From Planctomycetaceae bacterium (GTDB lineage: Bacteria; Planctomycetota; Planctomycetia; Planctomycetales; Planctomycetaceae), in assembly GCA_028284885.1 (NCBI GenBank), contig JANQQW010000270.1, positions 1 through 64,000 on the forward strand: DNA of 64,000 bases, in the 5' to 3' direction. A model generated the notes under the pieces. The model was given only the letters and a program-made list of their open reading frames with translations, was not told where the DNA came from and did no database searches. The position numbers and the translations under genes were made by a program. Positions 12,692 through 32,397 of the stretch are shown in pieces. Each line of letters starts with the position of its first letter. Positions within the stretch are counted from its first letter, which is position 1.

Positions 12692-12890
12692 AGGAGATGG
12701 AAGCGTCCCGCTGCCGACTCGAAGTGGCCGAGTTCGTCCGGAATCTAGCAACGCCAAGGGGTTCTGTCCACGAGCGTGGATTTGCCGGAGTCTGCCTCGC
12801 GCGCTGATTTCCGTGAACTCGGCGGCCCCGTACAACCGATAGAACCGATACGGGCTACACCGTCTTCCACACTGTCCCGAATTCGCCATC

Positions 12891-14768
12891 GTGACGCGCT
12901 TCGCCCACACAATACTCGGATCGCTGTTGCCGGTCCTCGCCATCTCAGCGCTGTGGCTGGTCGCGGCTGTTGCAGGCGAAGACTGGTCCGCCGTGCTCGA
13001 TCTCGAGCGAGAGCCGGGCGAGTTCGTCGAGTGGGAGGACACCAAGGCCGTGGGGGCCGATCCACCGGAGTGGTCCTACGTGCCGCCAAGTCCGCGCCTG
13101 ATCGACGGCAGCGAGCACTCGGAGCACTCGGAGCCCGTCCTGTTGGGCAGCAGCGATGCCAAGCCGCAAGGCTGGGTTCCGCGGCGTTACGAATCGCCGG
13201 GGTCGTTCATGCTCCCGGTTGCCGCGTTGGACGAGCAACCGCCGCGTGACCCAGGCGACGTGACAACGCTGGACGGCATGCTTGCCGAGCCGTTGCCCGC
13301 ATCGTCTGAGACGAGACTCCACTCGACGATCGACTTGTCCCCGTTGCCTCCCGTGGAAGAGCCGGCACTGCTTCCAGTCCCGACCCTCCTGCAACTACCG
13401 GCTCCCTCGCCGCTGCCCGACGAAGCGGCTCCCACGCTGGCCAGGCTCCCGGCCCCCCCCTCGCTGATGACCGACCTGCCGACTGCAACGGCCCCGTTGC
13501 CGTTCGTGGACAGTGTGATCGCGGTCTCGACACCACTCGAGCCGCCAGACGTTGCCGGACCTGAACCGACGGAGAGCACTGTCGAGCCGAGCGATCGAGA
13601 CGTGGCAGCGCTCGTGCCCGTCTCTCCCACCACGGAAGAGTCCGTGGCTGTAGTCGGAGCGAACCAGAAGCGCCCCCCCCTGCCGCCGGAGCCAGCCTCG
13701 ACCAAGCCGACACTCCCCGAACCCCGACCGGCGGAACCACCGCTGTTGCCGACGGTCGATCCACTGGTGCTCGACGTCGGATCCGACTGCCCGCTGTGCC
13801 AGCCAGGGCAGGCGATGCCCATCCTCGAGCAGATTCTCGCCGACGGGACGGAGTACGTCGAGGCGGAGTACGAGGCCAGTTGTTGGATCGACGAGTGCTC
13901 GCCTTGGCGGAAGCTGTTCGGCTGGGACGTCTGCCGGACATCCGGTCAACCGGGCATCGGCCGTGAGCGGCTCGACTGGGCCGGGTTCGACATCGACTAC
14001 GCGATTCCGTCCAACTACGTCGCGTTGCGGTACGAGTCGGCGGACAATCTGTTCGGACCAGATCGATCCGCGTACTTCTGGTCACCGCCACCCAGCGGGC
14101 CGAGCCGCCCGGAGACCGGGGTCGACTACCAGAACCTCTGGGTGCACTTCGAGACGGGCAACGACAGCTTCTCGATGTTGACCGAGCTCCCGATTCGCTT
14201 CGTCACCCCGGACGTCAACGAGAACACGTCCGGACTCGGTGATCTCCGGCTGGCCACGAAGACGGTTCTGGTCGACGGTCGCGACTGGAAGCTGACGAAC
14301 GTCTTCCGCACGTATCTCAGCACCGGTTCGAGCAGCCGTGGTCTCGGTACCGGGCACGTCTCTCTCGAGCCCGGACTTCTGGTGCGGTACCAGTTCTCGG
14401 AGCGAATGACCTGGAACGGCGAGCTGAAATTGTGGATCCCGCTCGGGGCCGAGAAACAGTACAGCAGCACGGTGATCGAGTACGGGTTCGGGGCGAACTA
14501 CCTGCTCTGTGACACGGACTCGTTTGCGATCATCCCGACGCTCGAGTTCACCGGCCTGGCCTACAACGGCGGGGCGTTCACACGGTCGGACGGTCTCGTC
14601 GTCTCCGGAAGCACGAACACGTTCGTCGTTTCACCCGGTGCCCGGTTCGTGCTCGGGCCGGCGGGAGACTTCGGCCTGTTCGAAGTCGGAGTCAACGGCG
14701 GGCTCGCGATCGGTTCGAGCGCACAGTTCGAGTCCGTGTTTCGCGTCGAGTTCCGGTGGAACTTCTGA
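12891..14768 (+). CDS. Secreted proline-rich outer-membrane beta-barrel protein
   Basis: 625 residues from a GTG at 12891. Signal peptide (residues 1 to about 28, ending LVAAVAG), a Pro/Glu/Ser-rich spacer (about 50-295), a Cys-containing segment (GSDCPLCQPG, CWIDECSPW), then about 250 residues of alternating strands ending in ...FRWNF. A C-terminal aromatic Phe and this strand pattern fit a porin-like barrel; the family resembles MetA-pathway/alpha-amylase-like outer-membrane proteins but I cannot name it. It is the only rightward gene among tssK, tssL and two tssM copies. An outer-membrane partner for the T6SS, spanning the periplasm with the Pro-rich region, is inference. Confidence 0.7.
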   Translation: MTRFAHTILGSLLPVLAISALWLVAAVAGEDWSAVLDLEREPGEFVEWEDTKAVGADPPEWSYVPPSPRLIDGSEHSEHSEPVLLGSSDAKPQGWVPRRYESPGSFMLPVAALDEQPPRDPGDVTTLDGMLAEPLPASSETRLHSTIDLSPLPPVEEPALLPVPTLLQLPAPSPLPDEAAPTLARLPAPPSLMTDLPTATAPLPFVDSVIAVSTPLEPPDVAGPEPTESTVEPSDRDVAALVPVSPTTEESVAVVGANQKRPPLPPEPASTKPTLPEPRPAEPPLLPTVDPLVLDVGSDCPLCQPGQAMPILEQILADGTEYVEAEYEASCWIDECSPWRKLFGWDVCRTSGQPGIGRERLDWAGFDIDYAIPSNYVALRYESADNLFGPDRSAYFWSPPPSGPSRPETGVDYQNLWVHFETGNDSFSMLTELPIRFVTPDVNENTSGLGDLRLATKTVLVDGRDWKLTNVFRTYLSTGSSSRGLGTGHVSLEPGLLVRYQFSERMTWNGELKLWIPLGAEKQYSSTVIEYGFGANYLLCDTDSFAIIPTLEFTGLAYNGGAFTRSDGLVVSGSTNTFVVSPGARFVLGPAGDFGLFEVGVNGGLAIGSSAQFESVFRVEFRWNF

Positions 14769-16193
14769 CGTAGTCCGCCGGGACGGCAGCGGTCCGGTCA
14801 ACTGCAGCACTGCCAGCCCGACGAGCAAGATCGAGAGAAGAATGCCACCGAACACCGCGAGCCGACGGCGGTTCGCGCGGCGACGCCCGTCCGGCCCCCA
14901 CTCAATCTGACTCTGGCGCGACCACTGCTCGTCGAGCACGCCGCCGACGAACGTCGCCGTCCCGTCGGCTCCGCCGAGACGGCATCCGGCCAGGCGCGGA
15001 ACGGGCGTTCCCGGAGGGACCTGCGTGGCGAACACGCGAGTGAGAAGACTCCCGAGTTGCGCGTGCGTTCGCGACCGCATGGTCGCGAGAAGCCCGTACA
15101 GGGACGCAGCCGTGACGGCGTCCTCCCACCGCGTCCGAAGCACTTCGCCGACCCCTCTCTGAAGATCGCGGCAGGCTTGCCGCGCGACCGCCTGACAAGC
15201 CGCGTCGTCGGCAACCGCCGGGACGGGGAGGCTCACCCCGAATGTCCTCGTCTGAAAGCCGGCCGGGCCCACGAGACGTCGGAACTCGTCGTAGCCAGAC
15301 GTACGTTCGATCCCGAGCAGCACGAGGGTCACGGGCACGTCCAACCCGGAGAACTCGAGTGTGCCTGCCAGGTCGTTCCGCGCCGCCTTCGCGACAACGG
15401 CTCGGAGCGACTCGTCGCCGAGGACCCGAAAGTCGACTTGCAAGAGGACACCGTTCAGCGGAGTCCGCGGGTCGCGGGTCCGTCGCAGCAACTCCACCAT
15501 GCGGTGCAGCCTCGCCACCGAACGATGGGCGTCCCGGAGCGATCCGGCCGTGAACGCCGCGTCGTCGACGAGCGCGAGGCTGCCCACTCGACGGACCACG
15601 AGGTACAAGGCCCGCCGCGACTGAAACCACTGCAGCGTCGCTTCGCGACCAGCGGTCCCGATCGGCTCGGCCGGCTCGCCGGCCGCACCGAGGAGGTTCG
15701 TGTCCCGACTCGCCGACTTCGAGCCGAGAACGACGAACACTGGCAGTCGCTCGAGCGAAACGCCGTTCACCCGGAGCAGGTCGAGGCCGCGTTGCCACTC
15801 GGCATCGAGGTCCGCGAACGGCGTTACGGCCGTACGGCGCGTCTCGGCCACGGCACGGCGGACGACGAGCGGGATCACGAACACCAGAGAGACGAGCGTT
15901 GCGATCGTTTGCCAGCCGAACCGGTCGCTCCACGGGTCGTTGTCGGCATCCTGGTGGAACCGCCACCACGCGAGGAGCACCGCGAGTGCGAGTACGACGA
16001 AGAGCCCGACCGCGAGCCAGGTCTCGAGTCGGATCGAGTAGAAGAACCGGCCGACACGGACCGGCCACCCACGCCAGCCCTTGGGCGGTTCCTTCAGACC
16101 GCGGACGCGGTCGAGAAACTGCTGCAGCACACCGCTCGAGTCAAGCGGCGGTGGCGGCGGGGCGAGGGGCGGAATCTGCTGGTCAACGCTCAT
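14631..16193 (-). CDS. tssM: TssM-like (IcmF) inner-membrane protein, short form 2
   Basis: 520 residues from the ATG at 16193 (MSVDQQIPPLAPPPPP). A Pro-rich cytoplasmic start is followed by two membrane segments (about 55-75 and 92-110) and an IcmF-like cytoplasmic domain (LPVFVVLGSKSASRDTNLL, again without a P-loop). A third membrane helix (VFGGILLSILLVGLAVLQL) comes near the end, then a 45-residue tail. As in the first copy, the periplasmic half of TssM is missing. The final 138 bp overlap the 3' end of the convergent outer-membrane gene. It lies 55 bp after vgrG on the same strand, so the two are probably co-transcribed. Confidence 0.72.
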   Translation of the reverse strand: MSVDQQIPPLAPPPPPLDSSGVLQQFLDRVRGLKEPPKGWRGWPVRVGRFFYSIRLETWLAVGLFVVLALAVLLAWWRFHQDADNDPWSDRFGWQTIATLVSLVFVIPLVVRRAVAETRRTAVTPFADLDAEWQRGLDLLRVNGVSLERLPVFVVLGSKSASRDTNLLGAAGEPAEPIGTAGREATLQWFQSRRALYLVVRRVGSLALVDDAAFTAGSLRDAHRSVARLHRMVELLRRTRDPRTPLNGVLLQVDFRVLGDESLRAVVAKAARNDLAGTLEFSGLDVPVTLVLLGIERTSGYDEFRRLVGPAGFQTRTFGVSLPVPAVADDAACQAVARQACRDLQRGVGEVLRTRWEDAVTAASLYGLLATMRSRTHAQLGSLLTRVFATQVPPGTPVPRLAGCRLGGADGTATFVGGVLDEQWSRQSQIEWGPDGRRRANRRRLAVFGGILLSILLVGLAVLQLTGPLPSRRTTSEVPPELDAKHGLELCARTDREPAVDSDFEQAEVSRRPEHEPGTG

Positions 16194-16248
16194 CCGGCCA
16201 CCCACACGCTCCCTCGACCCGTTCGCCGGGCTCTCCGTGTCCCGATCG

Positions 16249-18342
16249 TCAGTTGATCATCACCATGCCGCCCTTGAGCGTCAATTCGGCATCCGCCTGA
16301 AGCGACGCCAACGGGGCCTTCAAGTCGAGTTGCATGTCGCCCGACACGGCCACCTGAATCCCCTTGATGGTGACCCCCTGCTGGTCGATCGTGATCTCGT
16401 TGGAACCGACCTTCAGGCTGATGCCCTGCATCGCCTCGACGGATGCCTGCCCGGCCGAGACGGAGATGCTCAGGTCGCCCGAGTTGACGGTCAGGCTGTC
16501 GTCACTCTGCACCGTTACCGAGCGACTGCCAGAACTGATCTTCACCGTCCGGTCACCGGAGTTCACGGTGAGCGAGTCGTCCTTCTCGATGCTGACCGTC
16601 CGCCCGCCGGAGTTCACGGTCAACGAGTCTTCCTGTTCGACGGTGACGTTCCGGCTGCCGGTGTTCAACGTGAGTGAGTCGTCACCCTGGTCGATCTCGA
16701 CCGTGCGGTTGTTGTAGACCTTGATCGTCTGGTCGCCGGGGTCCTGGGCGTCGTAGCCGACCGTCAGCGTGTCGTCGTTCTCGACGACACGCTCGAAGTC
16801 GCGCTCGGCGTGCAGCGAGAACATCTCGCTTCCCTGCGTGTCGTCGAACACCAGCTCGTTGTAGTTGTCGTCCCCGCCGTTGAAGGACTGCGTGCGGATC
16901 GCCGTCTTCACGTTGTCGGTCGGCAGGTCGTACGGGAGGGTCTGGTCGGCGTTCCAGGCGGAGCCGACGACGATCGGCCTGTCCGGGTTGCCCTGAAGGA
17001 AGTCGACGAGCACCTCGTCACCCACCCGCGGCAGGAACATCGTGCCGACCTGCTTTCCGGCCCACGGCTGGGCGACACGAATCCAACAGCTGCTGTTCTC
17101 GTCGAGCTCGCCCACACGGTCCCAGTGGAACTGCACGCGGACGCGGCCGTACTCGTCGGTGTAGACGACCTGGTCCGACGGTCCCACGACGACCGCCGAC
17201 TGCAGTCCGTGCACCCGCGGAACCGGCGTGACGCGGGGGGGCCGGTAAGCCGTCGGCGCCGGGACGCACTCGAACTCGCCCAGGTACCCCTCACCGCCTC
17301 CGCCGCCGCCGGACAGCCGCAGCGGTGCACGCGCCGAGTGACTCACGCGGACGAGTGCGTACTTCTGCTGCTCGTCCGAGACGACGTGGGTCGCCAGCGT
17401 GAACGCCCCGCCGGCCCCGAAGGAGGCACACGTCCCCTTGCCGGTCACGACCTCGTAGGTCGCCTCTTGCTCCTCCATGCGAGCCTTGGCGAGTCCCGAG
17501 CCGACGGACGTCTGCGTGTAGAGGCCCGGGTACTCGTACCGTTCGTAGTCCGTCGATCCGGAGAGCGGGATGACGGTGTCCGTCGTCGCGGTCAGGTCGT
17601 TCGTCGGGGCCGTGAAGTCGTAGTCGTCGAGCGTCACGGTGCCGGGCCGGAACGAGAAACCGTGGGCCCAGTCGCTGATCGTTCCCGGCGTGCGGTCCGA
17701 GTCGTCCTCCGAGTAGTCGACGCTCGACTCGTCGCAGTCGTAGTACGCGCTGGCGTTGTCGGAGACGACGAGCGTGTGCTTCCCGTCCTCGTGCAGGAAG
17801 TAGTAGAACAGGCCCTCCTGCTCCAGCAGCCGCGAGACGAACGCGAGGTCGGACTCGAAGTACTGCAGGCAGTAGTCCAGCGTGGCCGGCGAGCCCTGCA
17901 GCTTCAGCTGGTAGTCGGAGAACCCGGCCGCGTCGAACACCTTCTGCACGATGTCCGTCCGCGACATCTCCTGGAAGACGAGCGCGTTCTCGTTCGTTCC
18001 CAACAGCCACAACCAGGGAACCATCTCCGCGCGATACACGCGCAGGTCGACGTCGTCCTCGTCTTGCAGGACGTCGCCTGCTTCGAGGCGACTCACGTAG
18101 CCGTTGAAGTACCGTGGGCTGTCGGAGTCCCCGCCGAGCGTCACCGTGACCGCCTTGCCGACGAGATCCTCCGGGGCGATCGACGACTCGCTCGAGAACA
18201 TCTCGAGCTCGTACCGAAAGAGCTGCGAGAGCCCCTCCGTGCCCGTGAACGAGACGAGCGTCAGCACGCCGTCGCCGAGCGGGGTGTCGATCTCGAGGAA
18301 TCTGGAGTCGGAGGAGTCGTCCGAGGAGCCGTCTGTGGACAC
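16249..18342 (-). CDS. vgrG: VgrG spike protein
   Basis: 697 residues from a GTG at 18342. The N-terminal gp27-like half contains FLEIDTPLGDGVLTLVSF, SRLLEQEGLFYYFLHEDGKH and YEYPGLYT. The gp5-like OB region has YTDEYGRVRVQFHWDR and WAGKQVGTMFLPRVGDEVLV. The C-terminus is a beta-helix needle built from repeats of the type DDSLTVNSGDRTV (at least five in a row, about residues 530-615) and stops without an added effector domain. A Gly-rich insert (SGGGGGGEG, about residue 345) is unusual. It is divergent from the six-gene hcp array across a 287-bp region. Confidence 0.95.
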   Translation of the reverse strand: MSTDGSSDDSSDSRFLEIDTPLGDGVLTLVSFTGTEGLSQLFRYELEMFSSESSIAPEDLVGKAVTVTLGGDSDSPRYFNGYVSRLEAGDVLQDEDDVDLRVYRAEMVPWLWLLGTNENALVFQEMSRTDIVQKVFDAAGFSDYQLKLQGSPATLDYCLQYFESDLAFVSRLLEQEGLFYYFLHEDGKHTLVVSDNASAYYDCDESSVDYSEDDSDRTPGTISDWAHGFSFRPGTVTLDDYDFTAPTNDLTATTDTVIPLSGSTDYERYEYPGLYTQTSVGSGLAKARMEEQEATYEVVTGKGTCASFGAGGAFTLATHVVSDEQQKYALVRVSHSARAPLRLSGGGGGGEGYLGEFECVPAPTAYRPPRVTPVPRVHGLQSAVVVGPSDQVVYTDEYGRVRVQFHWDRVGELDENSSCWIRVAQPWAGKQVGTMFLPRVGDEVLVDFLQGNPDRPIVVGSAWNADQTLPYDLPTDNVKTAIRTQSFNGGDDNYNELVFDDTQGSEMFSLHAERDFERVVENDDTLTVGYDAQDPGDQTIKVYNNRTVEIDQGDDSLTLNTGSRNVTVEQEDSLTVNSGGRTVSIEKDDSLTVNSGDRTVKISSGSRSVTVQSDDSLTVNSGDLSISVSAGQASVEAMQGISLKVGSNEITIDQQGVTIKGIQVAVSGDMQLDLKAPLASLQADAELTLKGGMVMIN

Positions 18343-18629
18343 GAGTCGTTCCCGGCGAGGATGGTCGAACGACCGATCCTAACCCGTGACGTTCGGTCGG
18401 CAAGTCCGTTGAGCGGGCGCGAGCGGCATCGGCAATGTCGTTCGAATTCCCGTTCGAACGGTGGGACCGCTTCCGATTGACCTGTAGAATGCCGCCGCGG
18501 GGTCCGGGCCGTCCCGCCGATTCAACACATTCGATCCAACGCCCGAGGGCTCGACGACGTTCGAGAGTACGGGGCCGCGGGTCGCGGCACGGCGAACGAG
18601 AACGGCGAACACGAAGGATCTCACCGCGG

Positions 18630-19160
18630 ATGCGATTCGACGGATTCCTGTATTCGACCGACGTCGCCGGCGAGAGCTCGGACGGCCGCGACAACAACGC
18701 GAACGAAATCGAGATCCTCTCGTACTCGCTCCGGATCTTCCGGAACGACACGCTCTCCCAGAACAACGGCAATCCCATCCTCGCCACTCATGGTGTTCTG
18801 ACCGTCATCAAGTACGTCGACGTGGCGACGCCCGCGCTCGCGAAGCTCTTGTACACGAACAAGCGCGTCGACGAGATGACGCTGATCGTCCGTGGGATGA
18901 TGACGCCCAACGCGGCGGCGGCCGCTGTCGACGACGAGCTGCTGAAGATCACGATCAAGAAGGTGCTTCCCACCCGGATTCACCACGTCGGCAACCCCCG
19001 CTTGCACCTGTTCGGCAGAGATCTCGAGACCGCCCGCCCGATCCCCTCGGGTTCCGTGCTCGAGTGCGGCCCGCTCGAGGAAGTCGATCTGCACTACTTT
19101 CAGAGCGTCAAGTGGGAGTCCGGCAACACCCAGTACACGTGGAACGACCCCGACCACTGA
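18630..19160 (+). CDS. hcp: Hcp-family protein 1 of the rightward array
   Basis: 176 residues from the ATG at 18630, preceded by AAGGA. The N-terminus has the Hcp pattern GESSDGRDNNANEIEILSYS; the middle matches the Hcp strand set LTVIKYVDVATPALAKLL, followed by VDEMTLIVRG and LLKITIKKVLPTRI. Hcp hexamers stack into the T6SS inner tube. This copy is about 15-30 residues longer than canonical Hcp, with extra loops. It opens an array of six tightly spaced genes (10-46 bp gaps). The frame upstream of 18630 is open but Arg-rich and not credible. Confidence 0.85.
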   Translation: MRFDGFLYSTDVAGESSDGRDNNANEIEILSYSLRIFRNDTLSQNNGNPILATHGVLTVIKYVDVATPALAKLLYTNKRVDEMTLIVRGMMTPNAAAAAVDDELLKITIKKVLPTRIHHVGNPRLHLFGRDLETARPIPSGSVLECGPLEEVDLHYFQSVKWESGNTQYTWNDPDH

Positions 19161-19179
19161 CGAGCACACGGCGGAGCGC

Positions 19180-19860
19180 ATGGATCTCGACGCCTTCATG
19201 AAGATCGAAACGGCGGCGAACGTCCGCCTCGACGGGGAGTCGTCCGACGCGGATCTTCAGCACCCGCACGAGATCGAGATCATCAGCTTCGAGCACACCA
19301 TCAAACGGACGCCGAATCGGGAACTGACGGCACACCATCTCGACCTGGACAGATCGATCGCGGAACTTCTGCAGCGTGAGAACCCGAACATCGCGCGAGG
19401 CATCCTGCCGATCCTGGTGCGACTGGCGAAGCCCGACTTGGAGGAGCGACTCGCGCACAATCTCGAGGAGGGGCGGCTCGTCGTCTACAAGTGCGTCGAC
19501 AACACGACTCCGACGCTCTGCGACTGGGCCGGGCGGGCCGCGTTCCTGGCCTCGGTCGCGGTCACCGTCCGGGCTCCCATGGCGGACAACGTCCAGGCGG
19601 TCCAGGCCGTCCAGAGGGACATGTTCACGATCGTGCTCGGCTCCCCCTGGATCGTCGACTACGAGATGGTCGGCGACTACCAGGTCCAACCCTGGGGGAA
19701 GCCCAACATGCACCCGCTCGTTGCCCATCCTCTGATGGAGTTCGGCCCCGTCGAGCGGATCGAGTTCGCCTACAAGACGGTCGGCTGGAAGTACGGGGCA
19801 CAGGCCGCCAACAAAGTGGGTTGGGACTTCGCGAACAAGCGCGAACAGATACCGCAGTGA
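19180..19860 (+). CDS. hcp: Hcp-family protein 2 of the rightward array
   Basis: 226 residues, larger than canonical Hcp (about 160-170). Start ATG at 19180 with GGAG seven bases before. Family signs: FMKIETAANVRLDGESSDAD, EIEIISFEHTI, then an inserted helix-rich stretch of about 50 residues (ARGILPILVRLAKPDLEERL) before the usual LVVYKCVDNTTPTLCDWAG and MEFGPVERIEFAYKTVGWKY. The insert sits where canonical Hcp has the loop between early strands and could change the hexamer surface. Nineteen bp from the preceding hcp gene. Confidence 0.82.
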   Translation: MDLDAFMKIETAANVRLDGESSDADLQHPHEIEIISFEHTIKRTPNRELTAHHLDLDRSIAELLQRENPNIARGILPILVRLAKPDLEERLAHNLEEGRLVVYKCVDNTTPTLCDWAGRAAFLASVAVTVRAPMADNVQAVQAVQRDMFTIVLGSPWIVDYEMVGDYQVQPWGKPNMHPLVAHPLMEFGPVERIEFAYKTVGWKYGAQAANKVGWDFANKREQIPQ

Positions 19861-19885
19861 CCGGATCCACCGGGGAGAGTCGAAG

Positions 19886-20713
19886 ATGTCCGAGGCAGGT
19901 TCGCAAATCTACATGTTCCTCCTGCGGGGATCCGACTTCTGGAAGAGCAACACGCTCGGCCTGGCGGCGTTGAATCCGCTCAGCCTCGTCAAGAACATCG
20001 TCCGCGGCGACTCGCTCGACCTCCCCTTCACGAGCTTCATCAACGTCCACGAGGTCGATCACGAGATCCACTTCCACCACGAGGAAGACCAGGCGGAGTA
20101 CGAGCAGTTCCACCCTCCCGCCAGGAATCTCCTGCGTGGCCAACGGACCGCCTCCGTGCACGACGCGATCTTTCGTTGGGACACCGCACGCCACCACGCC
20201 CCGGCCCCCCCCGCGCCCACGGTGGGGAGATGGACCGGAAAGCGGAGGCAGCCCGTGCCCGGAACGATCTTCGGGCACCTCCCGACGCACAACACCTTCT
20301 GTTTCACCAAGGGAATCGACTCGGCGACACCCCAACTCGCCTTCGGCTGCAGTGCCCAAGAGAAGTTTCCGCTCGCGGCGTTCTACTTCCGGCGGCGGAT
20401 CGGGCCGGGCATCCACGGCATTCGCATGCCCTATCTGGTTGTCGGCCTGCGGCGGGTGATGATCTCCGCCTGGGGCATCAAGGGAAGCGACCACGAGCAC
20501 GTGGAACTCCGCTACGAGAAGATCTGCTGGTTCGCGATGAGCCAGGTCGGCGACGCCGACGCCCCGCAGGGCGTCAGCATCCGGTACTGGGATCGAGACC
20601 GAAGCTCCGGTGGCGAGGCCGGGATGAACTGGGCCACGCTCCTCTCCTCGTTGACGACGGCCTTGGTGCTCGGGGCCGGCGGCGTCGTCGCGGCCACCGA
20701 CCCGGGAACCTGA
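19886..20713 (+). CDS. hcp: Hcp-family protein 3, with C-terminal hydrophobic tail
   Basis: 275 residues from the ATG at 19886, preceded by GGGGAG. The early part (IYMFLLRGSDFWKSNTLGLA) and later part (FTKGIDSATPQLAFGCSAQ, YLVVGLRRVMISAWGI) follow the Hcp strand order, but there are long insertions, including a Pro-rich segment (HAPAPPAPTVGRW). The last 28 residues form a likely membrane helix (LLSSLTTALVLGAGGVVA). A membrane-seeking tail on an Hcp-like protein is unusual and could mark a cargo function. Assignment to Hcp is by pattern and neighbours; it is the most divergent member. Confidence 0.7.
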   Translation: MSEAGSQIYMFLLRGSDFWKSNTLGLAALNPLSLVKNIVRGDSLDLPFTSFINVHEVDHEIHFHHEEDQAEYEQFHPPARNLLRGQRTASVHDAIFRWDTARHHAPAPPAPTVGRWTGKRRQPVPGTIFGHLPTHNTFCFTKGIDSATPQLAFGCSAQEKFPLAAFYFRRRIGPGIHGIRMPYLVVGLRRVMISAWGIKGSDHEHVELRYEKICWFAMSQVGDADAPQGVSIRYWDRDRSSGGEAGMNWATLLSSLTTALVLGAGGVVAATDPGT

Positions 20714-20723
20714 GGAACGCGAC

Positions 20724-21341
20724 ATGCCCGATTTGTACATGCGCATCGAGTCGGCCAACGGTCCGCCGGCTCAACCGGACATCCCCGCCACGTGGCCCAT
20801 CGGCGGATATCCCCAGGCCGGGGGAATCGGGGCTCCCGACCCGGCGCAGTTGATGAAGATCACCGGATTCGACCATCACGTGAAGGCACAGATCGCACCG
20901 ATGCGCCCCAGCGCTCTCAAGGCCCAGGTGCGGCGGTCCTACACGGAACACCTGCCGATGACCGTCCACCGGTCGATGGACAACGGCAGCCCCTATCTGT
21001 TCGACGCCTGCACGACCGGCAAGGTGTTCAAGGCGGTCCAGCTCTACTCCTGCCGTTCCGAGGAGAACAACGGTGTTGTCAGGCCGAAACCGTTCATGAC
21101 GATCCAACTGTCGAACGTGATCCTCGCCGACTACGCCTATCGCGCAACGGAGTCGGAGATGCCGGCCGAGACGATGCAGTTGCACTACACGTCGATCAAG
21201 CTCCTGCTCGCCTCGTACAACTACACCACGGAGCAGTTCGGAGCGAACGAGGACAAGACCTGGAACGGCCAGACGAACAAGTCCGAGAACGACCAAACGC
21301 TCAACAACGCCGTCACCGCCGAGAACACGCTCTTCACCTGA
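20724..21341 (+). CDS. hcp: Hcp-family protein 4 of the rightward array
   Basis: 205 residues from the ATG at 20724, with GAGGA eight bases before. Pattern: LYMRIESANGPPAQPD, LMKITGFDHHVKAQI, HLPMTVHRSMDNGSPYLFDA, then FKAVQLYSCRSEENNG, FMTIQLSNVILADY and MQLHYTSIKLLLASY. This is the standard Hcp order with a longer N-terminal loop. The C-terminus is Asn/Thr-rich (TWNGQTNKSENDQTLNN) and probably disordered. Ten bp after the previous gene, so translation may be coupled. Confidence 0.78.
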   Translation: MPDLYMRIESANGPPAQPDIPATWPIGGYPQAGGIGAPDPAQLMKITGFDHHVKAQIAPMRPSALKAQVRRSYTEHLPMTVHRSMDNGSPYLFDACTTGKVFKAVQLYSCRSEENNGVVRPKPFMTIQLSNVILADYAYRATESEMPAETMQLHYTSIKLLLASYNYTTEQFGANEDKTWNGQTNKSENDQTLNNAVTAENTLFT

Positions 21342-21377
21342 ACGTCCGGACCCGAATCGCACCCGCGGAGAACTCCC

Positions 21378-22001
21378 GTGCCGCAGCCCGACATGTTCCT
21401 CGCCCTCTCGGAGGGCGGCTGTGACATCGACACGGACGCGCAGACCGGCAGTACCGACGCCCGTTGCCCCGGGGCGATCGAGGTGCTCGCGATCAAGCAC
21501 GAGATCGAGCAGATCGGCTCCGAGGGGGGCGGACGACCCCGGTCCGTCGAGGCCGTTGAGCACGGCGAGCTGAAGATTCTCAAGCACATTGACCCGCGTT
21601 CCCCAAAACTCCTCAAGTTCTGCTGCATGGGGGAGTTCATCAACGAGGCCCGACTCCTCGTCTACTCCGCGCACGGCAAGTACTCCTGGGACTCGACGAG
21701 CCACGCCGTCACGTTGCCCAAGCCCTGCATGGAGTACCTCATGCGGTGGGTCCACATCAGCAGCATCGAACTGGAGGGAGCGGACGAGGGGGCCCCGACG
21801 GAGTGGATCGGGTTGAAGTACGGGCAGATCAAGGTGACGTGGTCCGAGTCCGGGATCATCAGCGCCGAGGAGCACTCCGACGGAGACATCACCGAGTACT
21901 GGTCCCACATCATGGAGGCCCCACTCGGCACGTTCGTCATCGGTGGCACGACGACCGGTCCACAGTCCACCTACACACCACCCACACCCCACTGGGCCTA
22001 G
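21378..22001 (+). CDS. hcp: Hcp-family protein 5 of the rightward array
   Basis: 207 residues from a GTG at 21378 with CGGAG upstream. Pattern: MFLALSEGGCDIDTDAQTGS, GAIEVLAIKHEIEQIGSE, GELKILKHIDPRSPKLLKFC, INEARLLVYSA, then WVHISSIELEG and LKYGQIKVTW. The two-residue Cys patch in LLKFCCMG resembles the HCC seen in both canonical Hcp copies at 22.8-23.9 kb. The C-terminal tail is Thr/Pro-rich (GTTTGPQSTYTPPTPHWA). Confidence 0.82.
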   Translation: MPQPDMFLALSEGGCDIDTDAQTGSTDARCPGAIEVLAIKHEIEQIGSEGGGRPRSVEAVEHGELKILKHIDPRSPKLLKFCCMGEFINEARLLVYSAHGKYSWDSTSHAVTLPKPCMEYLMRWVHISSIELEGADEGAPTEWIGLKYGQIKVTWSESGIISAEEHSDGDITEYWSHIMEAPLGTFVIGGTTTGPQSTYTPPTPHWA

Positions 22002-22047
22002 ACCCCAGCCACCGCGAACATCGCGAGAACGCTCCGGGAGCACGCCG

Positions 22048-22773
22048 GTGACGACGACAGCCAGCCTACAGTCGACCGCCTTCATGCAGGTCTACGAAGA
22101 GATCAGCGAAGAGGGGACGGGCACGCCCTGGGCGGGCGACGCAACGCACCCCGCCTACGACAGCGTCTGGTCAAATGTCCGCTACATGCAACTGCCGGTC
22201 GTGCAGGAGGTGACGTCCGCCGAGAGTTCCGACACGCCCCGCGCGGCCGGCCGTGCGGAGTTTCCCGACCTCACGGTCATCAAGGACAGCGACCAGATGT
22301 CGCCCAAGCTGTTCGCCACATGTGCCAGCGGCGGGGAACTCGACCTCGTCGTCCTCGAGTACACCGTCTACGACGGGGTGGCAAGCGACCTAGACACCTG
22401 CACGCCTCGCTACGTCGTGTTCCTGCAGGGTGTGAAGATCTGTCGCTTCGAGATCGACGAACATCGGCTCCACCGCCGGGACTTCGACATCACCCAGGCG
22501 ACGACGTCGTCGGGGTTGGCGACGACGTTCAAGGGACCGGAGACGGTTGACATACCCACCGGCACGCACGGGCAGCTCTACGAGGACGCGATTGCCTCCT
22601 CGATCGACAAGCTGAAACTGACCTACGACCAGATTTCCATCAGCTTCTACTCCAGCGGCACACACCAGAGCACGAACGGCTGGGACCGGGCCCACAACGT
22701 CCCGTTCGACTTCTTGCCCGGCTCGCCGGATTCGACCGGCCCGCGGATCTGGCTCGGCTCCGGGTCGGAGTGA
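22048..22773 (+). CDS. hcp: Hcp-family protein 6 of the rightward array
   Basis: 241 residues from the GTG at 22048, chosen because GGGAG precedes it by seven bases; the frame is open back to 21943 but that part overlaps the preceding hcp gene. Pattern: STAFMQVYEEISEEGTGT, YMQLPVVQEVTSAESSD, DLTVIKDSDQMSPKLFATC, LDLVVLEYTVYDG and IDKLKLTYDQISISFY. Several loops are expanded relative to canonical Hcp. It converges with the leftward hcp at 22781 with only 7 bp between stop codons and no terminator visible. Confidence 0.78.
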   Translation: MTTTASLQSTAFMQVYEEISEEGTGTPWAGDATHPAYDSVWSNVRYMQLPVVQEVTSAESSDTPRAAGRAEFPDLTVIKDSDQMSPKLFATCASGGELDLVVLEYTVYDGVASDLDTCTPRYVVFLQGVKICRFEIDEHRLHRRDFDITQATTSSGLATTFKGPETVDIPTGTHGQLYEDAIASSIDKLKLTYDQISISFYSSGTHQSTNGWDRAHNVPFDFLPGSPDSTGPRIWLGSGSE

Positions 22774-22780
22774 GGCCCGT

Positions 22781-23272
22781 TCAACCGCCCTTGGCCGTCC
22801 GCCGGTCCCAGAACGCCGGAACGGGTGGGATCGGCTTTCCCTGCCCGTCGATCCCCGTGTACCGCCAGTCGATTCGGCCGTAGACGAACGCGACCTCCTC
22901 GCGGGGGTGACCGTCCTGTTCGTCGTTGCCGACGACCACGACGCGGATCGGCTTCGCGTCGCTCAGTTCCACCCGCATGTAGGGCGTCTTCTCGCCGGCC
23001 GCCTTGCAGATCTCGACGACGACCTGGGCGAACACCGACCCTTGGCAGCAGTGCCGAGAGAGAAGTGGCGAAGACTGGTCGACCCGCTTGCGGATCGTGA
23101 AGTCCCCGTGTTCGGCCCCGCCGCTCGTGGGCCGTCCTTTGTCGTCGAACCCGCCCAGCTTGCGATGCGAGAGAACGTGTTCGTATCCCTCGATCTCGAT
23201 CCAACCGGAGTGTTGAGAGTCCGTACTTCCGCCTGGAAGCTCCTCGATCTTCACGAAACCGTCGAACGCCAT
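22781..23272 (-). CDS. hcp: Hcp tube protein, canonical copy A
   Basis: 163 residues, normal Hcp length, from the ATG at 23272. Reads MAFDGFVKIEELPGGSTDSQ, GWIEIEGYEHVLSHRK, GDFTIRKRVDQSSPLLSRHC, FAQVVVEICKAAGEKTPYMR, then VAFVYGRIDWRYTGID. Last gene of the main leftward T6SS operon, 90 bp after another canonical hcp; a strong hairpin lies between them and may lower its expression relative to the first. Confidence 0.93.
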   Translation of the reverse strand: MAFDGFVKIEELPGGSTDSQHSGWIEIEGYEHVLSHRKLGGFDDKGRPTSGGAEHGDFTIRKRVDQSSPLLSRHCCQGSVFAQVVVEICKAAGEKTPYMRVELSDAKPIRVVVVGNDEQDGHPREEVAFVYGRIDWRYTGIDGQGKPIPPVPAFWDRRTAKGG

Positions 23273-23297
23273 GACTCGCCGCTCCGAGCAAGGGGAG

Positions 23298-23330
23298 AAC
23301 CGGCGTCCCGACGGTTGCGGGACGCCGGTT
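23298..23330 (-). terminator. Hairpin between the two canonical hcp genes
   Basis: Perfect 12-bp stem AACCGGCGTCCC / GGGACGCCGGTT with a 9-base loop. On the minus strand it is followed by CTCCCCTTG, only partly U-rich. It could act as a leaky terminator or as a 3'-end stabiliser for the upstream hcp mRNA, tuning the ratio of the two tube proteins. Confidence 0.6.
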
Positions 23331-23362
23331 CGTGGTCACGTGGTGTTCCGCGGACGGACAGA

Positions 23363-23857
23363 CTACACCGACTTGTTGTGGGTGAAGTCCCAGCCGAAGT
23401 CGACGTTGCCCTTGCTGGCCCCGGTCTCGGGGTCGGTCTGAGTGTAGGTCAGCTTCAGCGTGCCACAGCTGAACGAGACCTTCTCCATCGGGACCGGGTC
23501 GTCGCCGGCGGCTGCGGCGACCGGGCGGTACGAGGTGACGAGACAGTTCGTCATCTCGTACTTCGCGTAGACCTGCTTCTCGCCGGTCGCCCGGCAGAGT
23601 TCGATCTCGATCGTTGCGATGTTCTCGCCTTTGCAACAGTGGTCGGCGAGTTTGGCGCTCGCCTTGTCCAGCCGCTTCTCGATGACGAAGCTCTCCTGGG
23701 TGACCCGTTCGCCGCCGCGGGCCCCGGAGCTCTCGCTCGCCCCGGTCGGCTGCAGCAGCCCGTGTTGGAACCCGGTCAGCTCGATCCACTCCGCGTGCTT
23801 GTCGTCGGTGCTCTCACCGGGAATGTCGGCGATTTTGCAGAAAACGTCGTAGGACAT
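23363..23857 (-). CDS. hcp: Hcp tube protein, canonical copy B
   Basis: 164 residues. The ATG at 23857 is preferred over the GTG at 23863 because GAGGAG stands at a normal distance. Motifs: DVFCKIADIPGESTDDKHAE, WIELTGFQHGLLQPTG, SFVIEKRLDKASAKLADHCC, IATIEIELCRATGEKQVYAK and KVSFSCGTLKLTYTQTD. This copy is closest to the textbook Hcp and is likely the main tube subunit. It follows clpV by 57 bp on the same strand. Confidence 0.94.
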   Translation of the reverse strand: MSYDVFCKIADIPGESTDDKHAEWIELTGFQHGLLQPTGASESSGARGGERVTQESFVIEKRLDKASAKLADHCCKGENIATIEIELCRATGEKQVYAKYEMTNCLVTSYRPVAAAAGDDPVPMEKVSFSCGTLKLTYTQTDPETGASKGNVDFGWDFTHNKSV

Positions 23858-23914: not shown

Positions 23915-26650
23915 TCAGGTCAGGTCGTAGGCGAACCGGCGGTCCTCGCCGATCCCCACGTGCACTCTCGAGACGGCCTCTCCGTCGGCCATCTTGGACA
24001 GGAACTCGCTGGAGAGTTCCGGCAGCAGGGTGTGGGAGAGAATGTGGTCGACGTTGCGGGCCCCGCTCTCCACCTCGGTGCACCGCTCGCGTATCGTCTC
24101 GACGACCTCGGGATCGTACTCGAAGGTCGCCTTGTAGTTCTCCACGACGCGGCGACGGACCTTGCCGAGCTTCAGCTCGACGATCTTCCGCATCACCTCG
24201 TCCCCCAACGGGTAGTAGGGGATGATGTTCACCCGACCGAGGAACGCCGGCTTGAACGTCTTCAACAGCTCCTCGTGCAACGCCTCCGCCAGTGCTCCAG
24301 GCTCCGGTGCCGTCTCCGGATCGGCACAGAGCTTGGCGATCAGGTCGGTGCCCGCGTTCGACGTGGCGATGACGACCGTGTTCTTGAAGTCGATGTCGCG
24401 CCCCTCGCCGTCGTGCAGCGACCCCTTGTCGAACACCTGGTAGAAGATCTCCTGCACGCCCTCGTGCGCCTTCTCGAGTTCGTCGAGGAGGACAACGCTG
24501 TAGGGACGACGGCGGACCGCCTCGGTCAGCACGCCACCCTCGCCGTAGCCGACGTACCCGGGCGGCGAGCCCATCAGCAGCGAGACCTTGTGCTCCTCCT
24601 TGTACTCGGACATGTTGATGGTGGTCATGTTCTGCGCGCCGCCGTACAGGAGCTCGGCGAGCGTGATCGCGGTCTCCGTCTTGCCCACGCCGCTGGGGCC
24701 CGCCAACAGGAACACGCCGATCGGCGTCCGCGGATCGGACAGTTTTGCCCGCGACGTGCGGATACTCTCGGCGATCGCGTTGATCGCGTAGTCCTGTCCG
24801 ATGATCCGCTCCTCCATCCGCTGCGGGAGTTCGAGCACGGTCCGAACCTCGTCCGCGACCATTCGTCCGACCGGAATCCCCGTCCAAGAGGAGACAACGT
24901 CCGCCACGACCTGAGAGTCGACGCACACCTGCATCAGCGGCGAGTCTCCCTGGAGCGTGGCGAGTTCCCCGTTCAGTCCGTCCAACTCGGCCCGCAGCGC
25001 GTCGGAGTCGGGCTCCGCCGCATCCGTCTCGGCCTCCGCCTTGTCCGGCACGGAGTCCGAGTCGGCAGTCGGGGGGCCGCCAGACGCGTCCTCGTTCGCC
25101 ACGTCCGGCGTTCCTCCCTCCAGACTTACGCGAATCTCACGAATCCGTTGGACGAGATCACACTCCTTCTGCCAACGTTCCTCCAACTTCGCCAACTCCA
25201 CCCGAGCGGTTTCGTGCTGGGAACGCAGGTCGGGGAGCGACTCGTCTGGGGCAGCGGTCTTCGCCTCGCGCTCCAACACGCGAATCGCGACCTCCAACTG
25301 CTCGACGCGACGACGGGCGTCCTCGACTTCGGGGGGCACGGCCGACTGCTCGATCGCCACCCGCGCACTCGCCGTGTCGATCAGACTGACCGCCTTGTCC
25401 GGCAACTGGCGGCCGGTGATGTAACGCCGCGAGAGTTTCACCGAGTCGACGACCGCCTCGTCGAGGATGCGGACGTGGTGGTGCTTCTCGAGCATCGTTG
25501 CGATCCCGCGGATCATGGAGATCGCCGCGTCGTCGTTCGGTTCCTCGACCTTGACGACCTGGAATCGGCGGGCGAGCGCCGCGTCCTTCTCGAAGTACTT
25601 CTTGTACTCCGCCCACGTGGTTGCGGCGATCGTGCGGAGCTCGCCGCGGGCGAGGGCCGGCTTCAACAGGTTGGCCGCGTCGCCTTGGCCGGCCTGACCG
25701 CCCGCACCGATCATCGTGTGGGCTTCGTCGATGAACAGTACAATCGGGCTCGGCGAGGACTTGACTTCTTCGATGACCCCCTTCAGCCGGTTCTCGAACT
25801 CTCCCTTGACCCCCGCCCCGGCCTGCAGGAGACCGAGGTCGAGCGAACGAATCGAGACGTCCCGCAACGGCTCGGGCACGTCCCCGTCGACGATGGCGAG
25901 CGCGAACCCCTCGACGACCGCCGTCTTCCCCACGCCGGCCTCGCCCGTGAGGATCGGGTTGTTCTGACGTCGCCTGGTCAGGATGTCGACGATCTGCCGA
26001 ATCTCGGCGTCTCGCCCGAGCACGGGGTCGATCTTGCCCTCCCGCGCCCGGCCGGTCAGGTCGATCGTGTACTGGTCGAGCGAGGGGGTCTTGGAGGGCT
26101 TGCCCGGTTGTCCCGGCATGCCGGGCGAAGTCGTCGCTCCGCCGGGTGGGCGGCTCGCGTACGCCTCGTTCGCCTCACCGGTCTCCGCCGTCACCCGGGC
26201 CAAGTCTGCCAGCAGCGACTGCGAGTTGATCTTGTCGAACTCCGGCGAGGCCGACGACGCAGTTCGCGACACCGTGTCGTCCGAGAGCAACGCTGCGAGT
26301 ACGTGCCCGGACCGCGTCACTGCAGAGTCGAACTGCACCGACGCGAGCAGCCACGCCTGTCGCACGAGGTGAACGAGATCGGGAGCGAGCCCGGGTTGAC
26401 GCGCGTTGCCCGTCTTGAAGCCGTCGAGCGACTTGTTCAGGCCTTCGACGACCCGCGCGGGATCGACCTCGAAGTACGCGAGGATCGCGGCAAGGTCGGT
26501 CTCCTGCTCGTCGAGCAGTTTCAACAACCAGTGCTCGATCTCGACGTTGTAGTGCGTCCGCGAGAGACAGAGCCCGGCCGCCCCCTCGAGGGTTCGGCGG
26601 CACGTTCCGTCGAGGCGGGCGACGAGCGACTTCAGATCAACAGGAACCAT
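23915..26650 (-). CDS. clpV: ClpV (TssH) AAA+ sheath-recycling ATPase
   Basis: 911 residues, usual length. N-domain with [20 protein letters not shown], two AAA+ modules with Walker [11 protein letters not shown] and [10 protein letters not shown], Walker B VLFIDEAH and [12 protein letters not shown], and the coiled-coil middle domain rich in Glu/Arg. The segment around residues 520-545 ([20 protein letters not shown]) is an acidic insertion within the middle domain that I would not expect in ClpV. ClpV unfolds the contracted TssB/TssC sheath. TagJ and TssB are in the same operon. The gene follows tssG by 31 bp. Confidence 0.96.
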
Positions 26651-26681: not shown

Positions 26682-27731
26682 TCATTCGACCGAACGACGA
26701 TCCAACGAGAACACCGCGTCGTCGCGATCCTCTTGCGACGGGCGGCCGAGAAGCCAGCTGTTCCTGCCGAGGCTCGACGGGGATGCTTGCGAACCGATTC
26801 TGGTTCTCGGTACGTCTTCGGCCCGCAGTACGGGTTGAACGTCGAAGTCGAACTCGACACCGGCGTACAGTCGCGTGACGGCGAAAACACGATCCTGTAG
26901 CTCGCGGCCGGGCAGGCAGCCTTCGAACGTCTGAACGTCCACCGGTCCAACTCGAAGCCGAAATCCGCCTTGGACGTCGAGAATTCGAGCCCCCAACGTC
27001 GTGTTGCGACCGAGTTGGTTGAAGGCCTGTGCGTGTTCGTCGCGACGAGGTAGCCGCGATCGCTCACGCGTCTCGAGCCGGGTCCGTTGGGGGCGAAACT
27101 CCTCGACGGCCGTGGGGGTTCCGAGGTACTCCTCGAGTAGCCGCCGCAGTCCGACAGGAGAGCGGACCCGCCGTCGAAACAAACCCGCGTAGAACACGAC
27201 GTCGAGGTCGCCGACACCCAGGCGGGCCCGCTTCCCGGGTTCGCCGAGGCCGACGAGGCACCGGAGCAGCGTCGTGAAGCGGTCGTCGGCCTTCCCGGCG
27301 TCGGACCTCTCCTCGAACTCGACCGGGAAACGGTGCTTCCGCCATGCTCGATAGAACAACGAGAGCAGCCGGTGGTTGAACTGGTCGAGGAAGCGGCGAA
27401 GCGTGTCGTCCCGCGCTCGCAGCCGCTCCAACAGCAGCGTCGTGTAGTGGGCAGGCAGCGCCCCGGCTGGTCCGGCCAGGCCGAATGCCCCCGTGGTCAC
27501 CTCCACACGACCGCTCCCCGAGTCCGAGGCGTCTCGTACGGAGTCGACTTCGGCGGAGGCGAATCGTTCCGTGACGGCCATTCGGAAGCGAATCGCCTCC
27601 CGGTCGGGACGCTCGTCGTCTCCAACGCGGCCTGTCTTCGATGCGCCGGATCGCGCGAGCGACCTTTCAAGCAGTCGTATCAGCTGGAAGAGCTCGAAAC
27701 GCTCGGGTTCGTCGCGGAGGCGGTCGATCAC
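26682..27731 (-). CDS. tssG: TssG baseplate protein
   Basis: 349 residues. The N-terminal family motif PERFELFQLIRLLERSL, followed by EAIRFRMAVTERFASAEV, ALPAHYTTLLLERLRARD and FLDQFNHRLLSLFYRAWRKH, is typical TssG (VasB/ImpH). Its ATG overlaps the tssF stop by four bases, so translation is coupled. TssG joins TssE, TssF and TssK in the baseplate wedge. The final part (RNTTLGARILDVQGGFRLRV) matches the C-terminal domain of the family. Confidence 0.94.
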   Translation of the reverse strand: MIDRLRDEPERFELFQLIRLLERSLARSGASKTGRVGDDERPDREAIRFRMAVTERFASAEVDSVRDASDSGSGRVEVTTGAFGLAGPAGALPAHYTTLLLERLRARDDTLRRFLDQFNHRLLSLFYRAWRKHRFPVEFEERSDAGKADDRFTTLLRCLVGLGEPGKRARLGVGDLDVVFYAGLFRRRVRSPVGLRRLLEEYLGTPTAVEEFRPQRTRLETRERSRLPRRDEHAQAFNQLGRNTTLGARILDVQGGFRLRVGPVDVQTFEGCLPGRELQDRVFAVTRLYAGVEFDFDVQPVLRAEDVPRTRIGSQASPSSLGRNSWLLGRPSQEDRDDAVFSLDRRSVE

Positions 27732-29563
27732 AGAAGCACCTCCGTTCCGCTCCGTGCCGGCCAGCGACGCACGATCCCCTCCCGTCCCTCGTAACGAAGA
27801 ACGAGTCGGACGAAAGAGTTGATCGAGCAGAACTCGCCGAGAAACCGCTCGAGCACGGTGGCGAACAGGAACTGGTGGCCAGCCGTGTAGCTGGCCGGGT
27901 CGAGGACGAGTTCGACCTCGATCCCACGGCAGACGGCCCCCGAGAGGTCACCGGGAACGCGTGAGACGACCTGACGATGGGACACCGACGAGATGCCTGC
28001 GATGACGGCCCGCGACTCACCGGAGTCGCGACAGTCGTGCTGTCGGAGCACTTCCTGCAGGGTCGCGGCACCTTCCTTTCCCCCCGAGAGCCCGAGATGG
28101 TCCAGTGACAGACTGGAAATCAGTCTCCACACGTCCGCACGACCGGTACGGCCGCGGATCGTGGGGGTAGGTAGCGTCAGCAGGCGGATTTCCTTGACGA
28201 GCCCCTCGCCGTCGACGAGTTGCATTCGCGGCTGAGCACCTCCGACGGGAATCCGGTGCGCGAGGTCTCGGTTCGTGCAGGTCGTCATCACGTCGACGTA
28301 GACACCGTCGAGTTCCGCACGTGCCTGGTCGAGGTCGACGAACGAGAGCGACGTCTCCGTTCCGTGGTCGACTCCGTCGACCGACTGCGACGATTCCCGC
28401 TGCGCGGCGTGCCAGAACGCTCGAGTGTCCTCGCCAGCATGTCGCAGAGAGTAGAACGGGCGGATCGGAAAGTGCTCGCCGTCCGGCGAAACGCCGTTGA
28501 CCTCGTCGACGGAGAAGACCTCCGTCGATTCGGGACGACGAGCGTCTGGGACGAGTCGGTACTCGTATGTCGTGCCGGTCAACGAGATCGGCTCGGCTCG
28601 TTGTCGGAACAAGTTGACGACGGTGGCGCACCCCAGCCGGAACGTGTCGGCGTCCACGTGCCGCTCGAGCTCGATGATCGTGCGATTCAGGTAGAGAAAC
28701 ACCTCGAGCCGCTGCCCGCTCGTCTCGGTGTCGAGTCGGTCGAAACCGCTCAGGTCGCAGAACGAGAACTTCTGGGGGAAGGCAAAGAACTCGGTGAGCA
28801 GTTGGAATCCCGGACCCCAACGTGCATCCGACGGAAGCAGCCCTTCGTCTTCACCGAATCCCCCTGGCGCGATGGCGGTCGGAGGGAGCACGACCGGCCG
28901 AGCGTCCTGCGGATCCGTCGCGAGCGCAACTTCGATGCAGTGGTTGAACAGCAACTCGTACAGCTGGGCGATGTGCTGCGGAAGCCCCTGCAGATGGAAT
29001 CGCAGGGTCTCCACGTCGAGGTCCTTGAACGTGACCTCACTGGACCGCGTCGACAGGGACAGGTGCACGACCGCCTGCGCCTCGTCGGACCGAGGCGTGT
29101 TCGGCGCCGGGTACGGGCGTGCGGCCAGCCGTGCGGAGACGACGTCGACCGGCCACAAGGTCGTCGGGAAGCAGGTTCGGAACCGACAGACGCTCCCGGA
29201 CAGCGGCTCGGTCTCGATCGGCGATCCGGCCGGGAGGTGGCAGCCCGAGACGAGGTCGGCCTGGTCCGGGTCGAGCAGGAACTGCACGATCGCGACCGAT
29301 GGGATCGGCCGTGTCGCATGTGGGTAGACGATCTGGAGAATCGAGTCCGTGATCTCCGGGAAGTCGTCGTCGAGCTTCATCCGCGTGCGCGCGTTCAAGA
29401 GCGCGAATGCCTCGATCAGTCGCTCGACGTGGGGATCCTCGCTGATCCCCTCGGCGAGCTGCAGCCGCCCTGCGATCTTGGGATGGGCAGACGCGAACTC
29501 CCCGGCCATGTGCCGGATGAACGACAGTTCGCGGTCGTAGTACTCGAGGAGCTCAGGCGTCAC
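27728..29563 (-). CDS. tssF: TssF baseplate protein
   Basis: 611 residues from a GTG at 29563 (VTPELLEYYDRELSFIRHMA), the hallmark start of TssF (VasA/ImpG). Also present: HPKIAGRLQLAEGISEDPHV, RLIEAFALLNARTRMKLDD and a C-terminal region with GHQFLFATVLERFLGEFCS and NSFVRLVLR. The start overlaps the end of tssE by 11 bp and its stop overlaps tssG. An upstream extension of the frame to 29815 is antisense-phase to tssE and is not used. Confidence 0.95.
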   Translation of the reverse strand: MTPELLEYYDRELSFIRHMAGEFASAHPKIAGRLQLAEGISEDPHVERLIEAFALLNARTRMKLDDDFPEITDSILQIVYPHATRPIPSVAIVQFLLDPDQADLVSGCHLPAGSPIETEPLSGSVCRFRTCFPTTLWPVDVVSARLAARPYPAPNTPRSDEAQAVVHLSLSTRSSEVTFKDLDVETLRFHLQGLPQHIAQLYELLFNHCIEVALATDPQDARPVVLPPTAIAPGGFGEDEGLLPSDARWGPGFQLLTEFFAFPQKFSFCDLSGFDRLDTETSGQRLEVFLYLNRTIIELERHVDADTFRLGCATVVNLFRQRAEPISLTGTTYEYRLVPDARRPESTEVFSVDEVNGVSPDGEHFPIRPFYSLRHAGEDTRAFWHAAQRESSQSVDGVDHGTETSLSFVDLDQARAELDGVYVDVMTTCTNRDLAHRIPVGGAQPRMQLVDGEGLVKEIRLLTLPTPTIRGRTGRADVWRLISSLSLDHLGLSGGKEGAATLQEVLRQHDCRDSGESRAVIAGISSVSHRQVVSRVPGDLSGAVCRGIEVELVLDPASYTAGHQFLFATVLERFLGEFCSINSFVRLVLRYEGREGIVRRWPARSGTEVLL

Positions 29564-30050
29564 GGTCGGGACTCCGCACTTCGCAGTTGCCGGTCGAGCG
29601 GTCGAGAACGGAGTCGTAGACGACCGGCTCCGGCGCAGGCGAGGCGTGCAACATCGCCTCGATGCGGAAGCGCAGCGTGCGGTCGAGTGAGTCGACGTTC
29701 TCGAGCGGAACGACGCGCACCTTGACGAACCGCGGCTCGAACATCGTGATCGCGCGTTCGACGAGTTCGAGGAACCGGTTCCGCCCCTCCGCCGCCCCGA
29801 GATTGGCGGCGGCAACGTCGGGGATTCCGTAGCCGACCACGCTCTTGCCGATCTCGCTCAGGTTCCCCGGCCAGGATCTCGCGAACCATCGCGTGTTGAG
29901 CAGGTTCTCGAGATCCCGTCGGACGGAGGCGTGCAGTTCCGACGTGCGCTGGCCTCGCATCCGGGCGGGCTCCCTCTCGGTCTCGGGAGCCTCGTCCAGC
30001 AGCCGGTCCAGAACCGAGGGTTGTAGAGGTTGATTGCCCTCACTGCGCAC
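29553..30050 (-). CDS. tssE: TssE gp25-like baseplate protein
   Basis: 165 residues from a GTG at 30050. The N-terminal motif QPSVLDRLLDEAPETE, then LHASVRRDLENLLNTRWFAR, VVGYGIPDVAAANLG and MFEPRFVKVRVVPLE are standard for TssE, the homologue of phage T4 gp25 that starts sheath assembly. The EPR motif of the lysozyme-like fold is present. It overlaps tssF by 11 bp and begins 11 bp after tagJ. Confidence 0.94.
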   Translation of the reverse strand: MRSEGNQPLQPSVLDRLLDEAPETEREPARMRGQRTSELHASVRRDLENLLNTRWFARSWPGNLSEIGKSVVGYGIPDVAAANLGAAEGRNRFLELVERAITMFEPRFVKVRVVPLENVDSLDRTLRFRIEAMLHASPAPEPVVYDSVLDRSTGNCEVRSPDRDA

Positions 30051-30061
30051 GCGCGGTCTCC

Positions 30062-30862: not shown

Positions 30863-30884
30863 CGGTGGAACCTCTGTGGAGCGG

Positions 30885-32384: not shown

Positions 32385-32397
32385 CGCGTCCCCGAGC

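Follow-up and report, generated by a model that had tools for sequence, protein, structure and literature searches.

Eight Hcp-family genes between ClpV and VgrG

The DNA analysed here, a 64,000-nucleotide stretch from a Planctomycetaceae bacterium (the window), carries a type VI secretion system (T6SS) in which an array of eight Hcp-family genes occupies the slot between the genes for ClpV and VgrG. Candidate proteins were scored over their whole length against PF05638 (T6SS_HCP; curated cut-off 23.5 bits) and TIGR03344 (canonical TssD; cut-off 58.9 bits). All eight open reading frames (ORFs) across positions 18630–23857 exceed the PF05638 cut-off (33.4–116.2 bits), which confirms the assignment to the Hcp family made in an earlier reading of the letters alone (the sequence-only reading), and the ORF layout is the one it described, with six enlarged relatives of 176–275 residues running rightward and facing two leftward Hcps. 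The rightward genes, on the + strand, encode divergent Hcp paralogues: A1 (18630–19160; 176 residues; PF05638 47.9 bits), with an enlarged β5–β6 loop; A2 (19180–19860; 226 residues; 33.4 bits), in which both the β2–β3 and the β5–β6 loops are enlarged; A3 (19886–20713; 275 residues; 44.1 bits), with a 76-residue β2–β3 loop and a hydrophobic C-terminal helix; A4 (20724–21341; 205 residues; 64.3 bits), with a longer N-terminal loop and C-tail; A5 (21378–22001; 207 residues from a GTG start; 60.0 bits), with a longer C-tail; and A6 (22048–22773; 241 residues; 37.9 bits), with a 50-residue β5–β6 loop. On the – strand lie A7 (22781–23272; 163 residues), an ordinary-sized Hcp scoring 96.4 bits with PF05638 and 66.6 bits with TIGR03344, and A8 (23363–23857; 164 residues), the canonical Hcp tube protein (116.2 and 69.9 bits), which matches Protein Data Bank (PDB) entry 7fcf with an E value of 1.9e-42. 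The probable start codons of A6 and A8 are the GTG at 22048 and the ATG at 23857; read from an alternative GTG at 23863, A8 would have 166 residues instead of 164.

Only A7 and A8 pass TIGR03344, while A1–A6 remain below the cut-off with 21–44 bits. Because A1–A6 lie on the same strand with intergenic gaps of 10–46 bp throughout, they look like a single operon, and the convergent A7 ends 7 bp from the end of A6. The paralogues share 18–32% pairwise identity, and the GC content at third codon positions is 0.87–0.89 in all of A1–A6, the same as in ClpV. A search of the whole genome (6.47 Mb in 399 contigs, estimated to be 100% complete, with the window on contig C380) found nine Hcp genes, of which eight fall within these 5.2 kb and one stands by itself on contig C373, accompanied by its own TssB and TssC. 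Chance ORFs were ruled out as a source of the array by the profile scores and by the one-to-one conservation in a second genome described below.

Conservation of the array in a second genus

When A3 was compared with all 170 family genomes, a full-length relative emerged in just one, the planctomycete metagenome-assembled genome G068, which belongs to a different genus (38% identity, E 3e-51). The locus in G068 (L021, L025) has a mirror-image layout, with ClpV followed by B8 and B7, then by B6–B1 on the opposite strand, and then by VgrG; the remainder of the T6SS is syntenic, two TssC genes included. Best matches pair A1 with B1 through A6 with B6 in order, at pair identities of 24–47% (46% for A5 and B5); A8 and B8 also correspond, at 47%. 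In a maximum-likelihood tree of 66 proteins, five A/B pairs form starred clades, and A1/B1 and A2/B2 together form a starred group of four. Support for the A6/B6 pair is lower (88/57), and a long-branch warning applies to it; B6 is assigned by synteny and best match. A7 and B7 are not counterparts: A7 is nearest to A8 and B8 and has no orthologue in G068. The sequence-only reading had spoken of two canonical Hcps, which holds in the window by the TIGR03344 scores, although of the two A8 alone is matched by a true counterpart in G068. Gene-for-gene conservation within the Planctomycetota, which the same reading had put forward as a check, was found for A1–A6, and a mixture of unrelated families is excluded.

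To compare the enlargements, strands were named by the usual Hcp numbering and by alignment to A8. The β2–β3 loop measures 58/65 residues in A2/B2 and 76/85 in A3/B3, against 22/23 in A8/B8. The β5–β6 loop measures 30/27 residues in A1/B1, 28/29 in A2/B2 and 50/43 in A6/B6, against 12/12 in A8/B8, and the C-tail measures 58/61 residues in A3/B3 and 43/45 in A4/B4, against 26/26. A hydrophobic C-terminal stretch is present in both A3 and B3 and is modelled as a helix in A3. Thus, loop insertions and a hydrophobic tail do differ between members, as the letters alone had suggested. The proline-rich segments proposed alongside them are present only locally, as an APPAP stretch in A3, since overall proline is 5–8% in A1–A6 compared to 4–6% in the ordinary copies A7 and A8. 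All reading frames are intact in both genera, and the orthologue pairs retain their order, loop sizes and core motifs, each pair with its own loop or tail enlargement. Since each of A1–A6 has its own ordered orthologue and has kept its own enlargement, the sequences indicate that the duplications are older than the split of the two genera and that the six were retained as distinct parts, that is, as old specialised subunits.

Two members, A3 and A6, were folded with AlphaFold2 (AF2). The mean predicted local distance difference test (pLDDT) values were 72.8 and 75.3, with confident Hcp cores and low confidence for most of the insertions, and the best PDB matches of both models were all T6SS Hcps, with template-modelling scores (TM-scores) of about 0.8–0.87 by target length. 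The models predict that the Hcp fold is kept in A3 and A6, which is support and not independent proof, because canonical Hcps were included in the AF2 alignments. Searches of Pfam and NCBIfam at E values up to 10 returned no non-Hcp domain in any member, except for one spurious sub-threshold match.

The array is rare. It is present in two of the 170 family genomes, the window genome and G068, and most genomes of the family sample hold 0–2 Hcp matches. Across 392 genomes sampled from the phylum, 87 have any Hcp, and none besides the window genome has more than four matches. An A3/B3 profile run over 398 genomes of the class matched only the window genome and G068; the A3/B3 alignment, compared with 84,980 species genomes, found only the G068 contig (JANSXP010000011.1), and A4 alone found no relative in that same set. 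A3 alone gave one weak match among the 392 phylum genomes, in G308, whose two Hcps score as canonical. Genome G046 carries seven similarly scoring canonical Hcp genes, which are scattered over six contigs (C14, C22, C23, C33, C68 and C126) and represent a different kind of expansion.

The ClpV–VgrG slot in relatives and the surrounding T6SS

Elsewhere among the planctomycetes, this slot contains one Hcp (L039, L044), two (L050, L052), three or four (L045, in G272). A fused arrangement is found in three genomes of another planctomycete family, where ClpV is followed by two stand-alone Hcps and then by an Hcp domain in frame on the N-terminus of VgrG. The fusion proteins have 939 residues in G506 (L049:6316–9135, –), 924 in G855 (L066:4084–6858, –) and 902 in G845 (L065:6290–8998, +); both Pfam domains are above cut-off in each, and the β2–β3 loop is enlarged in the fused Hcp part of G506 and G855. 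Neither a phrase search nor a wider term search of the literature library turned up a published report of an Hcp–VgrG fusion. Since VgrG is trimeric and Hcp hexameric, a fusion of the two implies mixed Hcp contacts where they meet. Judged by its domain content, a protein combining Hcp with VgrG must be located at the junction of tube and spike. The position of these fusions in the VgrG-adjacent part of the slot supports a tip-proximal, hetero-oligomeric Hcp assembly.

Other arrangements of Hcp genes were also observed. The slot in G272 contains four tandem Hcp genes (L045:5987–8400, +), the last of which encodes 248 residues with a long charged insertion and stops 2–3 bp before the VgrG match; this set is apparently a separate expansion. 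In G500 (L059:2402–4561, +), Hcp and amidohydrolase domains share one open frame of 719 residues, possibly an extended Hcp effector or an assembly artefact. A 407-residue protein in G502 (L067:3404–4627, –) has two Hcp-like segments.

Around the array, the core T6SS genes TssA–C and E–L and VgrG were found beside the Hcps, with ClpV assigned by synteny and with PAAR and TssJ outside the check. The VgrG/TssI spike gene (16249–18342, –; 697 residues; TIGR03361 574.6 bits, PF05954) is divergent from A1, and the region between them (18343–18629) presumably contains divergent promoters. A scan of this gap found no sigma-70-like site, although such a scan says little in this phylum. Adjoining A8 is the gene for the ClpV/TssH ATPase (23915–26650, –; 911 residues), recognised by sequence and synteny and 66% identical to the G068 ClpV in the same place. 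It is followed by TssG, TssF, TssE, TagJ/ImpE, two TssC, TssB and TssA (26682–35627, –), identified by Pfam matches and by synteny with G068. On the other side, TssK, TssL and two short IcmF-N (TssM-like) proteins were identified by Pfam matches (9147–16205, –). The two short proteins (9147–10550 and 14631–16205, –; 467 and 524 residues) contain the IcmF N-terminal domain alone, and no full-length TssM was present among the ORFs checked in the window. The tandem TssC genes (30885–33933, –), which encode two different large sheath subunits, are both also found in G068, at 77% and 48% identity, and for this reason the sheath may be heteromeric too. Three large proteins flank the T6SS (35700–47554, –), with a VWA domain (1601 residues), a PPIase domain (713 residues) and an Ig/carboxypeptidase-regulatory-like architecture (1764 residues); G068 has their counterparts at the equivalent position. 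No effector or immunity gene was recognisable inside or beside the array in the window genome or in G068.

Possible roles of the divergent paralogues

That the six enlarged versions are retained one for one in another genus suggests a tube or tip assembled from a number of distinct components instead of a single repeated one. Our leading but tentative proposal is that A1–A6 are ancient, distinct paralogues of one T6SS that co-assemble in one or a few hetero-oligomeric rings close to the tip, with A8 as the tube. The bulk of the tube would be made from canonical A8, perhaps with A7 too, and A1–A6 would be structural subunits at its VgrG end. Built from the conserved Hcp fold, such a ring would present a non-uniform surface or lumen, formed by the β2–β3 loops of A2 and A3, the β5–β6 loops of A1, A2 and A6 and the tails of A3–A6, which could dock VgrG and hold cargo before firing. 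The proposal is based on homology, on the fold of the A3 and A6 models, on the operon layout, on the position in the slot and on the one-to-one conservation with kept enlargements; from these we infer co-assembly, tip position and cargo holding for A1–A6. Among the roles that the sequence-only reading had offered (a mixed tube, a specialised tip or base ring, or Hcp-linked cargo), a hetero-oligomeric, tip-proximal assembly is favoured because of the gene-for-gene conservation, the ClpV–VgrG slot and the Hcp–VgrG fusions in related slots, while Hcps bearing a toxin as cargo were rejected, since no domain besides Hcp passes in any member. Several points weigh against the tip-ring proposal. The array occurs in two genomes only, which ties the set of six to a single lineage; A1–A6 are neither fused to VgrG nor closest in sequence to the fused Hcps; and the canonical Hcps in the AF2 alignments bias the models towards the Hcp fold.

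In its sharpest special case, which we regard as a distinctly minor possibility, A1–A6 would make up a single obligate heterohexamer, its six different subunits in a fixed order around the ring, acting as a pseudo-sixfold asymmetric adaptor that joins the trimeric VgrG to the sixfold tube and positions cargo. There are six subunits per Hcp ring, and the two genomes share exactly six divergent members, matched one-to-one and in the same order, whereas A7 and B7, the seventh in each, do not match; the fusions on the trimeric spike also imply mixed rings. A 2026 article, citing the primary report, describes Hcp homologues of one Bacteroides system that form heterohexamers and Hcp subunits that assemble around cargo (PMC13323088). 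However, two genomes of one lineage are no statistical sample, and the slot in other planctomycetes holds two to four Hcps, not six. About equally improbable, in our judgement, is a loading toolkit rather than a tip, in which each paralogue would form rings, or join A8 in rings, along the tube with its own effector in the lumen. Luminal residues set the specificity of cargo loading into Hcp rings, and Bacteroides rely on multiple effector-specific Hcps (PMC13323088); at 18–32% identity, the lumens of the paralogues must differ. An effector-matched set would nevertheless be expected to vary between genera, yet the six are fixed, and neither genome has a recognisable effector or immunity gene in or beside the array.

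It is unlikely that the insertions or tails act in their own right as toxins or as domains that bind a target, in the manner of 'evolved' Hcps. The proteins are enlarged, and the conserved hydrophobic C-terminal helix of A3 could act on membranes, but the Pfam and NCBIfam searches found only Hcp domains, no immunity gene was seen, and most of the added sequence forms internal loops, for which no fold is predicted, rather than C-terminal domains. We consider it very improbable that A1–A6 are redundant copies, or copies in decay, with no particular function, an idea to which their high divergence might otherwise lend itself. Pseudogene decay was rejected on the intact frames and the conserved order, loops and motifs in two genera, and the GC3 range shared by all six with ClpV also argues against it.

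The tip-ring proposal can be set beside known systems. Like canonical Hcp/TssD, all eight proteins pass PF05638, the models of A3 and A6 agree with solved Hcp structures and the locus encodes a complete T6SS, but A1–A6 fail TIGR03344 and bear long loops or tails; a typical planctomycete T6SS has one or two Hcps compared to the eight here. Extended Hcp effectors (Hcp-ET) are likewise enlarged, but the window Hcps lack a C-terminal toxin domain or immunity gene and their additions are chiefly internal loops. Phage tails and extracellular contractile injection systems use tube-type subunits of more than one kind, and those near the hub (tube-initiator, hub-proximal) are specialised. The array shares this multiplicity, but A3 and A6 find their best structural matches among T6SS Hcps and the cluster encodes a full membrane-anchored T6SS. 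We know of no fully heteromeric six-subunit ring in a contractile injection system. Another parallel is the Bacteroidales T6SS (GA1–GA3), whose loci typically encode 2–6 Hcps, for a reason that was unexplained in 2016 (PMC4714493), and for which a hetero-oligomeric ring is also the leading idea. The window has eight, and its expansion lies inside the planctomycete Hcp tree. PMC10781749 reports the Bacteroidota to be without homologues of canonical membrane-complex genes, whereas TssK, TssL and IcmF-N proteins are present here.

That one T6SS can have several Hcps is thus already established. What the present analysis adds is the phylum, the number of genes in the set and their one-to-one conservation, the loop architecture and the Hcp–VgrG fusions in the equivalent slot. 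The T6SS tube is commonly regarded as a single protein repeated many times. Seven one-to-one conserved Hcps in two genera, six of them strongly specialised, make heteromeric rings and a specialised spike–tube junction testable outside Bacteroides, and the Hcp–VgrG fusions are a natural construct for viewing how a sixfold tube meets a threefold spike. If A1–A6 do form a fully heteromeric ring, this would, to our knowledge, be new for a contractile injection system.

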